Assembly: GCF_000218895.1 (NCBI RefSeq)
Contig: NC_015703.1
Location: 433,501 to 497,500, forward strand
Reading direction: 5' to 3'
DNA length: 64,000 nucleotides
Source: Runella slithyformis DSM 19594
Lineage (GTDB): Bacteria; Bacteroidota; Bacteroidia; Cytophagales; Spirosomataceae
Positions 31,414 through 35,763 of the stretch are shown here, one piece after another. Numbering within the stretch: the first letter of the stretch is position 1; each line of letters starts with the position of its first letter. The notes beneath the pieces were generated by a model. The model was not told where the DNA came from. It did not search any database and was given only the letters and a program-made list of their open reading frames with translations. The translations under genes were made by a program, and so were the position numbers.

Positions 31414-34227
31414 TTATTTGGTTTTAAGCAGGAATCCCAACAACGCATAAAATTCCTTTTCGGGAATGGTATTCCTGAATTGGTCAGGCATCAGGGTGTA
31501 TTTGGAGGCTTTGTATTCTTTAATATCATTTTTAGCCACCGTAAATTCCTGCCCCGACGGGTTGGCAAATACCATCGTTTGGCCTTCGGTACGGCGATAC
31601 AGCCCCGTCATGGATTGGCCGTTGTGTAGGGTGATGTTATAGCTGCGAAAAGCTTCCGAGATGTTTCGATTGGGGTCCAGTATCTTTTCGGTGAGCGCTT
31701 TTTGGCCCCAATTGCCGATACCGTCCAACTGCGGACCGATCAACCCACCCGTTCCTTTGATCTGATGGCACGCGCTGCAATTTTGGGCAAATACCGCTCG
31801 GCCCGCCTCGGCCGAAGCCTTGGCCGTTTCAAAACCCGCCAATCTGGCCAGAATCAGCTTTTGCCTTTCTTCAAATTCATTGAGTCCTCCCGCCGTCAAT
31901 TGATTCAACTGAGTCTGTTGCAACGGCTTACTTTTGGCGGCCAATCGCTCCCTGACCGCTACTTCGGTCAGCACATCGGGGTTTACGTTTTCTTCCTTTA
32001 ACGCTTTGATCAAATGATCAATACCCGCTTCAAAATTGGCTAAGGCAGCGGCAATGCCCACCTGCAAACTGCGCGCGCTCCCGATCAATCCTTTTTCCAG
32101 CAACGAAAATACTTCGGGCGAAGGCGTACGGGACAAAGGAGCCACCAATTTTTCCCGCAGGGAGATCGGCTCCGAACGATCATGAAAAATCTCGCCCAGC
32201 AGTACTGTATTAGTTTGAGGAGCAAGGCTCATCAGCGCATTGGCCGCGGCCACACGTACGTTGACAGGTGCTGACTTTGCGGTCACTATTTTTTGCAGAG
32301 ACGGCTCCAACGCCGCCACTTTATAGTCACCGGCAATATCGGCCGCCTGCGCGCGACGGGTACTGAGTGCGGGAGATTCGTTTTCAGCTACCGGAATCGT
32401 CAGGTAATGCGTGGCCATCTTTGCCCCCCATTCCTGCAAGGGCAGCGATACGCTCAAGCCGCTCTGTGCCACGCCTCTGCGCAGCGAAGTGTAGAGCAAA
32501 AACTGACTGTCCATGTCATTGCCAAAGCGGTGCTGCATCAGCCCGGTAATTTCGTTGATGCGGTCAGTGTTCACGTAGCGGCCGATGTATTCAATGTTTT
32601 TGGCAAGCTCTTCCACCGACAACTCGTGCGTTTTCAGGTAGCCCCACGCAAACATCGCTACCTCGGGCGACGGGATGTCGAGGGCTGCTTTTACGAGCAA
32701 TACCCGTTGGTCTTCGTTCCAAGGCCGTGCCGCTGCCTGTTGCATGATTCCTTTCGCGGCTAAGTTGGTCCGAATGGCCAGCAGCGTCGTGTAGGTCAAA
32801 TGCGAGTCTTCGGCATCCGTTTGTTGATACAGCTTCATCAAAGGGGTGAGATTGTCAACGTTCGGAAACCTCGTCAGCACTTCGGCCGCGATGCGCCGCA
32901 CAAACGGATTCTGATCGTTCAGCGACGCTCTGACTGCCGCGCGCCGCGACTCCGGCAGAGTTTCCGCTTCCGCCAACACCCGAAACGCATGAACACGTAC
33001 CGTGGGATCGTTATGTGTCATCGCTTGACTCAACAATGATTCGGGCAAGGCCCCGAGTCGGTGCAGTATCCATAATCCGTGCACAAATTCAGTAGCTTTC
33101 ACCCCCGAAGAGGTCATCATTTCGGTCACGGGCGCAATGGCTTTTTCTTTGGCCACTTCTGCCAAGCGGTCCGCAATTTTCAATCGTACGTTCAATTGAG
33201 GGTGTTGCAGGCCCGCCACCAGCTCGTCGATCGCGGCCTTTGACCAATCTTTTACGGGAACGTTACGGTGGGGTTCCCTGCCTTTGTAAGTAATTTTCCA
33301 AATCCTGCCGCTGGTACGGTCGCGCTTGGGATGATTGAGCGGTACTTCGTAGTGACCGATGATCCGGTTGTAAAAATCAGCAATGTACAGGGCACCATCG
33401 GGACCGACTTTCACATCTACGGGACGAAACCACGGGTCGTCGCTTACCAGAAAATCGGTTTCTTTTTGGGAAACGGGCGTAGAGCCCCTGAAGGTTATGG
33501 TGTTGCGGTTTACTTTGCACGTCACCACGTCGCCGTTGTAAAAGCTGTTGCGGTAGGCGGCAGGAAATTGTTCGCCTACGTAATACACCAAGCCCGAAAG
33601 TGCCGTCGAGCCCAGTTCATAACTCATCATTTCGGGGCCGAAGCCGATGCCCGTGGGTTTCTTGCCAAAATGCGGATAGTCAGCGCCTTTGATGAGTTGG
33701 TAAATAGGTTTGGAATGGCAGTCGACCGAATACAGAAACCCTCGCTCATCAAAGGCATACCCAAACGGATTCACCCTGCCAAAGGTGGTTTGCTCCACCC
33801 GGCTGCCATCGGGCCGAAAGCGAAAGGTGTTGCCGGAGGTCATCGAGACGGAGTCACCGTCGGTACCGGCGATCTTGGAGGTATTGGTAAAACCGTGGCA
33901 TGAATTTACCCAACCGTCAAAACCCCGTATAAAATTGCTCACCATGCCGTGGGTATCTTTGTAGCCAAAAGCCCCATAGAGTACGCTGCGTGTATCGGCC
34001 CTGCCGTCGTGGTCGGTATCGACAAAATGATACACATTGGGAATACTGTACGCAATGGCACCGTCGGCCACGGGCATGATACCGATGGGGATGTTTAGTC
34101 CCTCCTGAAAATCGGTAAAGGTATCGGCTTTTCCATCGCCGTTGGTATCTTCCAAAATGGTGATCTTATCGTTTCCTTTTTCGGGGGCCGCCGCCATCGG
34201 ATACTCCGACGAATGCGTGACCCACAG
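31414..34227 (-). pseudogene. C-terminal part of PVC-type haem protein gene, cut by IS
   Basis: This piece encodes about 936 residues starting at WVTHSSEYPMAAAPEKG, which has no proper start: it is the downstream part of a gene whose first 89 codons lie at 35494-35763. It has a beta-propeller of the PVC-type/glucose-sorbosone dehydrogenase kind (ILEDTNGDGKADTFTDF; VDTDHDGRADTR; VGPDGALYIADFYNRIIGH), a long HEAT-like helical region (residues about 330-760) and a C-terminal cytochrome c domain with NCSACHQIKGTGG and Met in TLMPDQF. Such proteins are exported oxidoreductase-like proteins in Bacteroidota and Planctomycetes. Removing the element restores a 1025-residue frame. It may be untranslated now or start internally at the Met about 30 bases into it. 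Confidence 0.93.
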
Positions 34228-34239
34228 GATTTCTATGAT

Positions 34240-35254
34240 TCAAACAAGTGAATAAGTATAATTTTCGTCATATTTTTTACCCTGCTTGGCTAAAGAAAAA
34301 ATAAGCCTGACCAGCTTGTTCTTCATGGCATTAAAAACGGTGAACTTGTTTTTGCCTTCTTTGAGTTTTCGTTCATAGTAAGCCTTAAAATGAGTGTTAT
34401 ATCTCATGGCTGACATGACACAATTAGATAAGGTGGCTTTTATTCCTTTGTGAGCTTTTTTGCTGACTTTGGGCTTTGAGTGTAAACTGCTGCCAGAGCT
34501 ATTTTCAAAAGGTACAACCCCGGCATGGCAAGCCAGTTGTTTGGCATTCTCGAACTTTTTAAATTCGTCTGTTATGACAATACATTTAGCCGCAGTAACA
34601 GTACCAACTCCGGGAATAGAGGTGATGTTGTCAAAGAGTGATTTGAGCTGAGGATCAGAATCAATGAGTTCTTTAATCTGCTTTTCGAGGGTTTGCAAAT
34701 CAGTTTCGACTCCTTTGAGCGTATGAGCAGAGTATTTTTTTTGTGTCTTTTTGTGAGGGTTTTATTAGCTTCACAAGACTTCTGCTCATTCAAGGCAGTC
34801 AGACAAATTTGGCGTACTTTTACTAACCTGTCACGAATGTCAAGCAGATTGTCCAATTGATCAATTATAGCCCTGGGAGGCACATAAAGCTTGATTTCAT
34901 CGCGATTTTTATAAGCATAACGAGCAATACGCTGGGCATCAATGATGTCATTCTTGCCTCTGACATCGCCCATTGAGTACTTTATTTGGCTACCTGATTC
35001 CAACCAAATTGCTAGCTTTGCGACTCAGTCAGATATTTCAATAAACGAGTGTGATAAATCCCGGTGTGTTCCATGCAAAAAACGGCACTTCCAAGTTTAA
35101 AATTTAACTGCCTTTGGAGGCTTATTACAGTTTTGGTTATGCTCTTTATATCATTACCCGAAACATGTTCTAAGATAATCTTATTAGAACTACAAACTGC
35201 CCAATTCAAACTTTCTTTGGAGATGTCAATACCGATAAAATACTGTGTTTCCAT
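34240..35254 (-). pseudogene. IS110-family transposase, two frameshifts
   Basis: Three consecutive frames make up one DEDD transposase. The first (80 codons from 35254) has IGIDISKESLNWAVC and CMEHTGIYHTRLLKYL, the second has KNDIIDAQRIARYAYKNRDE, and the third has SIPGVGTVTAAKCIVIT plus KQLACHAGVVPFENSSGSS of the Transposase_20 domain with a C-terminal Ser/Lys-rich strand. The shift near 35015 and the one in an A8 run near 34735-34742 are both in the -1 direction. The A8 run could allow slippage, but the first shift has no obvious slippery site, so decay or sequencing error is likelier. It is probably unable to move by itself. Confidence 0.9.
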
Positions 35255-35297
35255 GATGGTTGATGTTAAGAGTTTGTGTATTTTTACAGTACAGTTG

Positions 35298-35440
35298 TTG
35301 AGATTTTATCCGCCATCAACACCTTGGCTAATGGGTTTTACCCGGATTTCTATTTGATGTTTGGATAAAAACAGGATATAGGATTCAATCCCGTGGTGGG
35401 TTTTGCCCCTGCGGCCCCTTAAAGTGCCTATATCCTGCTC
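35298..35440 (-). ncRNA. Putative IS110 bridge RNA
   Basis: The segment lies in the noncoding left end upstream of the transposase and reads on the minus strand. The 5' stem-loop has an 11-base perfect stem (35427-35437 with 35372-35382). Its loop holds GGGGCCGC (35411-35418), identical to the left target flank at 35500-35507, and ACCCAC (35396-35401), complementary to the right flank GTGGGT at 34220-34225. A second stem-loop (35354-35359 with 35314-35319) holds ATAGAAATCC (35344-35353), identical to the element's right end at 34227-34236. AAATCT (35301-35306) is complementary to the left end. Order and strand polarity agree with the target and donor loops known for IS621-type bridge RNAs. 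Ends are approximate. Confidence 0.75.
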
Positions 35441-35493
35441 AACAACTGAAAAGTAAACTTACCAGTTTCTTGGTTTTGTTCAATCACACAAAT

Positions 35494-35763
35494 CTAAAGG
35501 CGGCCCCGGTCATCAAACTCCATATTGATGGGCTTCGTGATGTGAGGTTCCGACGCAAAAAGAGTGATTTCAAAACCGGGCGGCAAATGAAAGCTTTTTC
35601 GTTCCTGCTCCGGCGTTCTGAAATCGGTGGTTCGCACGTGATCGGCAAAGACGTCTTTTGGGGCAGCGTTCTTTTTAGGAACGTTGCACCCCTGCGCATA
35701 CAGCATCAACAGACCTGTGCCGAGCCATAGGGTCTTTTTCTGAAACCAAACGGAATTTTTCAT
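35494..35763 (-). pseudogene. N-terminal part of the interrupted PVC-type haem protein
   Basis: The first 89 codons of the gene continued at 31414-34227. It has a lipoprotein-type signal (LWLGTGLLMLYAQGCNVP, lipobox around AQGC), then SFHLPPGFEITLFASEPHIT and NMEFDDRGRL, the standard N-terminal segment of PVC-type haem-binding domain proteins. The codon after GRL is a TAG created by the inserted element; in the intact gene the next residues would be WVTHSSEYP. It is therefore a truncated product at most. Confidence 0.93.

Follow-up and report, generated by a model that had tools for sequence, protein, structure and literature searches.

An IS110-group insertion sequence of Runella slithyformis with a predicted bridge RNA whose guides match its insertion sites, most of them in a 16-bp dispersed repeat

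The closest described system is the bridge RNA of IS621 and the IS110 group. As presented in the available parts of two reports (PMC11208160, PMC11208158), a DEDD recombinase with a Tnp domain is combined there with an RNA from the left end; this RNA forms two stem-loops, with the target loop first, and its left guide (8-9 nt) pairs with the bottom strand whereas its right guide (4-7 nt) pairs with the top strand. The element analyzed here has all of these features in common with that system. A noncoding RNA that guides target choice, located upstream of the transposase gene in the IS110 type, is likewise shared with the seekRNA of IS1111/IS110 elements, as described in part of PMC11187229, whereas IS1111 members usually carry the RNA downstream and possess subterminal inverted repeats, unlike the element here. 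Finally, the use of a dispersed palindromic repeat as landing site is common to our element and to ISPpu9, ISPa11 and ISRm19, which lie in REP palindromes according to the portion of PMC1525189 available to us.

The element, its transposase and the predicted bridge RNA

In this study, we analyzed a window of 64,000 nucleotides (the whole stretch of DNA under study) from Runella slithyformis DSM 19594, in which the following features belong to the element and its noncoding left end:

34229..35498, minus strand: IS110-group insertion sequence of 1270 bp (TTTAG...AAAT), with six near-identical copies in the genome and ends common to relatives
34240..35254, minus strand: transposase gene, frameshifted in comparison with the open 336-aa copies L002 and L005
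35292..35448, minus strand: predicted bridge RNA consisting of an outer stem, a target stem-loop and a donor stem-loop (fold z -5.03; compensatory change in the target stem)
35372..35438, minus strand: target-binding stem-loop in the predicted fold, with arms at 35427-35438 (GCAGGATATAGG) and 35372-35382 (CCTATATCCTG)
35345..35353, minus strand: left donor guide ATAGAAATC, the same as the element right end at 34228-34236; an A/G variant covaries in relatives
35322..35330, minus strand: candidate right donor guide, UA (35329-35330) and AAGG (35322-35325), proposed by analogy with the right donor guide (RDG) of IS621; it can pair with donor CCTT and TA

The element starts with TTTAGATTTG and ends with CATAGAAAT, and the bounds of 34228-35499 given in the original prediction contained one C too many on each side. 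Six copies are present in the 6.9-Mb genome (the window copy and L002-L006). The predicted RNA region is identical in all of them, and the whole noncoding left end is identical across L002-L006, except that L006 has lost one base in the interval between the outer stem and the ATG. This left end comprises 244 nt (from 35498 to the ATG at 35254), as against approximately 11 nt past the stop at the right end. DNA matches to the element were found in nine of the 13 genomes of the genus, mostly partial; the element is present in Runella defluvii (L159), R. limosa (L160) and Runella sp. MFBS21, and the genera of its relatives include Spirosoma, Larkinella, Fibrella and Rudanella. A lone 54-bp stretch elsewhere in the genome (L013, G000:C1:59500-59553) is 84% similar to the target stem-loop region.

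In the window transposase gene, four single bases are additional and one is substituted compared with the open copies; these differences could stem from assembly error, and the frameshift of the gene could reflect either decay or assembly error. L006 is frameshifted as well, whereas L003 and L004 have lost their last residues through a one-base deletion in a T run. The open L002 protein matched the Pfam domains PF01548 (DEDD_Tnp_IS110, E 6.8e-13) and PF02371 (Transposase_20, E 1.1e-21), the NCBIfam model of IS110 RNA-guided transposases (NF033542, 157.1 bits with a cut-off of 140) and the IS621 structure 8wt6 (phmmer, E 3.7e-24). In the phmmer alignment, read by eye, the catalytic D, E, D and D and the serine of IS621 align with D10, E62, D102, D105 and an SSG segment. 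The element appears to have been active in the past.

Folding of the 240-nt minus-strand interval 35260-35499 gave -69.8 kcal/mol compared with a shuffled mean of -49.5 (z = -5.03), and none of 200 shuffles was as stable. The target stem formed between GCAGGATATAGG and CCTATATCCTG as had been proposed, and two internal loops were predicted. Stem pairing was examined in 32 of 45 non-redundant left ends, after exclusion of two distant sequences (L177 and L192) and of 11 that contain repeat insertions. The target stem had a mean of 10.1 bp, compared with a maximum of 8.8 when arms were permuted between elements, and the donor stem gave a weaker signal in the same per-sequence test (8.16 vs a permuted maximum of 7.84). 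According to these predicted folds, the target stem is maintained through compensatory change. RNAalifold on the 32 bridge RNAs returned only 10 pairs, on the donor side, and missed the target arms, and the per-sequence tests were used instead. No Rfam family matched the RNA, the single weak hit lying far under the gathering score (E 0.75).

With regard to the donor loop, ATAGAAATC matches the right end of the element, and UA and AAGG could pair with the start of its left end. All 13 elements ending in ATGGAAAT also carried ATGGAAAT in the left end, 42 of the 49 ending in ATAGAAAT carried ATAGAAAT there, and the other variant was never seen in either group; three more right ends in Runella sp. 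MFBS21 yielded CCCGTGCGG. In IS621, the RDG pairs with donor positions 8-11 and 13-14, as described in part of PMC11208158, and by analogy UA and AAGG would represent the right donor guide here. AAGG follows the donor hairpin in 60 of 62 elements by pattern; the sequence of this candidate is nearly invariant, and therefore covariation cannot test it. Taken together, the locus is almost certainly an insertion sequence of the IS110 group whose noncoding left end encodes a bridge RNA of its own, with guides that specify the insertion site, and this RNA is presumably transcribed.

Target guides and their covariation with the flanks

The host site of the window copy and the guides that correspond to it are as follows:

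35411..35418, minus strand: left target guide GGGGCCGC, identical to the flank at 35500-35507
35500..35507, minus strand: left target half-site GGGGCCGC in the host gene, which has orthologues without the insertion
35390..35395, minus strand: right target guide CACGGG in the corrected register
34223..34228, minus strand: right target half-site CCTGTG, paired with CACGGG
35398..35409, minus strand: possible small hairpin GGG-CAAAA-CCC between the two target guides, which includes ACCC of the right guide proposed earlier
31414..34197, minus strand: downstream part of the interrupted PVC-type heme-binding gene (TIGR02604, E 2.4e-54; TIGR02603); its 5' part lies at approximately 35499-35763, with the start placed by eye

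The host gene codes for a PVC-type heme-binding CxxCH protein. It is uninterrupted at this position in all nine aligned relatives (16 loci for the site) and has a similar sequence there, for example GACCGCGGGCGGCTGTGGGT in L039. The window copy sits in coding sequence, whereas the five other copies lie in a 16-bp repeat; its target would be a chance resemblance, in which the codons for Arg-Gly-Arg-Leu-Trp-Val happen to spell a similar sequence.

The identity of the left guide GGGGCCGC with the flank, as originally reported, was confirmed. Along the minus strand of the window, the preceding 8-mer was present in the 44-nt loop at 90 of 63,950 positions, the loop's own positions included. With the element removed, the true site ranked first among 125,416 positions on both strands, with 14 of 14 matches (8/8 left and 6/6 right) compared with 12 of 14 for the runner-up. 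This agrees with the earlier claim that the match exceeds chance, although the ranking is partly circular because the match to this very flank had served to delimit the left guide in the first place. The independent test of the guide match is the covariation across the family rather than the ranking within the window.

A total of 75 loci (six own copies and 29 + 40 from relatives) were analyzed, of which 62 could be parsed via their end motifs and 13 could not, including own copy L006 because of its frameshift. The anchor of the right guide was recognized in 61 of the 62 (five own copies and 56 relatives; lacking in L148). The register of the right guide, first noticed by eye in a handful of elements, was subsequently tested on the full set: the guide consists of the six bases before a conserved ATT, and its partner of the six bases after AAAT. 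First, the 25 distinct right guide/target pairs had on average 5.48 of six positions paired, compared with a mean of 3.54 and a maximum of 4.56 after permutation, and none of 20,000 permutations, which ignore relatedness, was as good. Sliding the register from -8 to +5 gave at most 2.59 of six, and alternative pairs were observed at five of the six positions (G-C, C-G and A-T at position 2). Second, the 50 distinct pairs of left half-site and loop matched at 6.56 of eight positions vs a permuted maximum of 6.0, and again no permutation was as good (0/5,000, relatedness ignored). Poor right-guide fits occurred in L062 (2/6), L084 (3/6) and own copy L004 (4/6); among the 50 left pairs, L062, L074 and L079 reached 4/8 and nine others 5/8. 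The original prediction had named covariation between loop and flank in other copies as its test, and such covariation was found over 61 copies. Its core statement, that this IS110 element carries guides matching the site in which it inserted, has strong support.

An element in Runella defluvii (L159/L060), 90% identical in DNA and 96% in protein, lies outside the 16-bp repeat, apparently in a repetitive coding gene, with a left half-site of 6/8 and a right guide of 5/6.

The right guide was previously placed at ACCCAC (35396-35401), pairing with GTGGGT around a CT core. These letters are indeed present and, in this one copy, provide six exact complementary bases together with CT at both junctions. 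However, this register reached only 2.63 of six across relatives against 5.48 for CACGGG, it paired poorly with the right flanks of other copies (GAGCGG, GGCGGC and GTGCGG), and CT was not conserved on the right junction. We therefore rejected ACCCAC as the right guide, a role that had been misplaced by six bases and that we regard as extremely unlikely. The right guide of the window copy is CACGGG because, family-wide, the six bases before ATT pair with the six after AAAT; in the window, CACGGG and CCTGTG form five Watson-Crick pairs and one G-T pair. Short arms of a possible hairpin between the target guides were also seen in some relatives.

As for the core, the CT reported at both junctions is literally there in the window copy, whereas it does not hold as a general core: an IS621-like conserved CT at both junctions was not found among the parsed loci, which share an invariant C, with CC at the left junction in 62 of 62 and CN at the right (CG in 35, CC in 25 and CT in two). 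We infer that the crossover immediately follows a single shared C, with the second base coming from the donor at the left junction and from the target at the right junction, and the rebuilt empty targets are consistent with this. The recombinase would accordingly join donor AAATC^CTTTAG to target ...C^N... around the shared C.

The 16-bp repeat as landing site

Five of the six copies lie within the 16-bp GC-rich repeat CGGGGCCGCCCGNGCG, one of them lacking a base, and at these sites the left guide fits fully and the right guide at four to six of six positions. Element-free relatives could be aligned for each site (two for L002, three each for L003, L004 and L005, one of the last being poor, and a single messy one for L006). 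Measured against these empty sites, the inserted sequence comprises more than the element itself: it has an additional CGGGGCCGCC at the left and an additional CCG(A/T)GCG at the right, the latter reading CCGGCG in L004. Pfam searches on the fragments identified the interrupted genes as IS66 (PF03050) in L003, IS3-type HTH_Tnp_1 in L004 and IS91-type in L005; by eye, L006 lies in the same IS66 gene as L003, and the gene interrupted by L002 is transposase-like (no Pfam match). L003 and L006 (G000:C4:6142402-6145455) are in opposite orientation approximately 530 bp apart within the one IS66 transposase gene, as judged by eye.

Such extra sequence might suggest that CGGGGCCGCC just belongs to the element as its left end and that the likeness to the loop is an internal repeat instead of a target match, since CGGGGCCGCC adjoins TTTAG in all six copies and is absent from the empty host site in five. 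However, the PVC gene in relatives continues across the empty site with closely similar sequence, the 16-bp repeat containing CGGGGCCGCC occurs without the element, and relatives that combine another left flank with a matching loop were found: L060 and other subtypes have different left flanks, in most cases accompanied by a different loop. On the basis of the empty sites and the element-free repeat copies, CGGGGCCGCC as a part of the element was rejected, and the probability left to it is close to nil. According to the bridge-RNA reading, one RNA would have sent five copies into 16-bp dispersed repeats and the window copy into the PVC-type heme-protein gene.

Seven exact copies of CGGGGCCGCCCGNGCG without the element are present elsewhere in the genome. 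When up to two mismatches were allowed, 45 copies were found vs 30 for the reversed control, so that only near-exact matches are informative. One copy, L092, forms a clean 16-bp insertion that interrupts a gene judged transposase-like by eye (no Pfam match). Two paralogous stretches of the same genome are contiguous across this site, and a search of the genus for its empty site found that only these own-genome paralogues cover it. In L066 and L125, the 16-bp repeat lies inside the bridge-RNA region, where it is absent in L062. Repeat subtypes were also seen by eye inside the bridge-RNA region of the IS110 relatives L085, L072, L061, L201, L210 and L223. Around several 16-bp repeat copies (L091, L095, L098, L099 and L102), AT-rich intergenic runs with a loose motif (e.g. 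accgaaaaatgtaaaaccg) were noted.

The T form of the repeat, CGGGGCCGCCCGTGCG, occurred in 70 of 200 family genomes, with up to 113 copies (G006) and 66 in G111, and its reversed control gave zero throughout. The base following the T form was G in all 45 distinct contexts and GT followed in 36. The repeat is built from two interlocked inverted repeats, in which bases 1-4 pair with 9-12 and bases 6-8 with 15-17, the 17th being the neighboring host base. Subtypes differ by joint changes in both arms of a stem, examples being CGGG/CCCG, CAGG/CCTG, CCGG/CCGG and TCGG/CCGA in the first stem, and CCG/CGG, CGG/CCG and TGG/CCA in the second. In G006, three copies are arranged head to tail with a period of 16 inside what reads as another subtype. 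Over 918 kb of loci, the exact spacing yielded 190 GC-rich instances vs 0-22 for eleven other spacings, a count that is biased upwards because the loci were partly chosen for the repeat.

The two-stem 16-nt pattern was present in 45 of 56 distinct rebuilt IS110 targets, compared with a shuffled mean of 0.9 and maximum of 5, and the target in the window is without it. Of 70 loci from further relatives, 48 could not be parsed by the end motifs; the remaining 22, which include some elements already in the set, comprised 14 with a two-stem target and eight without. The frequency of this pattern, together with the REP palindromes known as targets of IS110 elements (PMC1525189, in the part available), would fit a recombinase that recognizes the hairpin shape of short repeats, with the RNA match being secondary. 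However, from one repeat subtype to another, individual bases of the right guide change together with those of the target, and at the coding site of the window copy, which has no two-stem pattern, both guides nevertheless match fully, so that recognition by shape appears very unlikely compared with recognition by the guides.

Two candidates for the mover of the repeat were rejected. The Y1 transposase (PF01797) was found in 163 of the 200 genomes, both with and without the repeat, and was not found in G142, which has 25 copies. An IS110 relative (E <= 0.001) was found in 57 of the 70 repeat-bearing genomes and not in the other 13, and 44 genomes had a relative without the exact repeat, a comparison that ignores relatedness. 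The 16-bp repeat may be compared with the very small mobile repeats of cyanobacteria. Among the titles and abstract openings listed, no description of this repeat was found, and the string GGGGCCGCCCGTGCGG gave no matches. Bacteroidetes are described in part of PMC3733652 as containing CGTC-tagged palindromic repeats, a class to which this repeat could belong, so that it may already have a different name.

On balance, we favor the view that Spirosomaceae contain a mobile family of 16-bp micro-repeats of varied sequence, formed by two interlocked inverted repeats and inserting precisely, whose subtypes were tracked as landing pads, in either orientation, by the guides of IS110 bridge RNAs. As part of this joint reading, the repeats would insert without duplicating the target site, and would do so even where the target is another repeat or a gene for a transposase or a bridge RNA.

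Comparison with known systems

The mechanism is that of the known bridge-RNA system, and IS110 elements in REP palindromes were also known earlier. What is new is a natural family with guides that follow the subtypes of a 16-bp repeat, together with a corrected register, a corrected core rule and a single case of insertion outside the repeat, which a guide match explains. The natural evolution of bridge-RNA guides and targets thereby becomes visible at base-pair resolution, with one repeat in many subtypes as the target, and the family provides a ready data set of compatible guides and targets with a core rule unlike the CT core of IS621. The 16-bp repeats themselves would rank among the smallest mobile sequences, which raises the question of their mover.

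Compared with IS621, as far as the available parts of PMC11208160 and PMC11208158 describe it, the element here differs in two respects. First, in place of the CT core, an invariant C appears to mark the crossover, the left junction reading CC and the right one CN. Second, most targets are subtypes of a 16-bp dispersed repeat. In contrast with the REP-targeting IS110 elements, as presented in part of PMC1525189, the repeat here is 16 bp long, is built from two interlocked inverted repeats and has subtypes with which the guide covaries.
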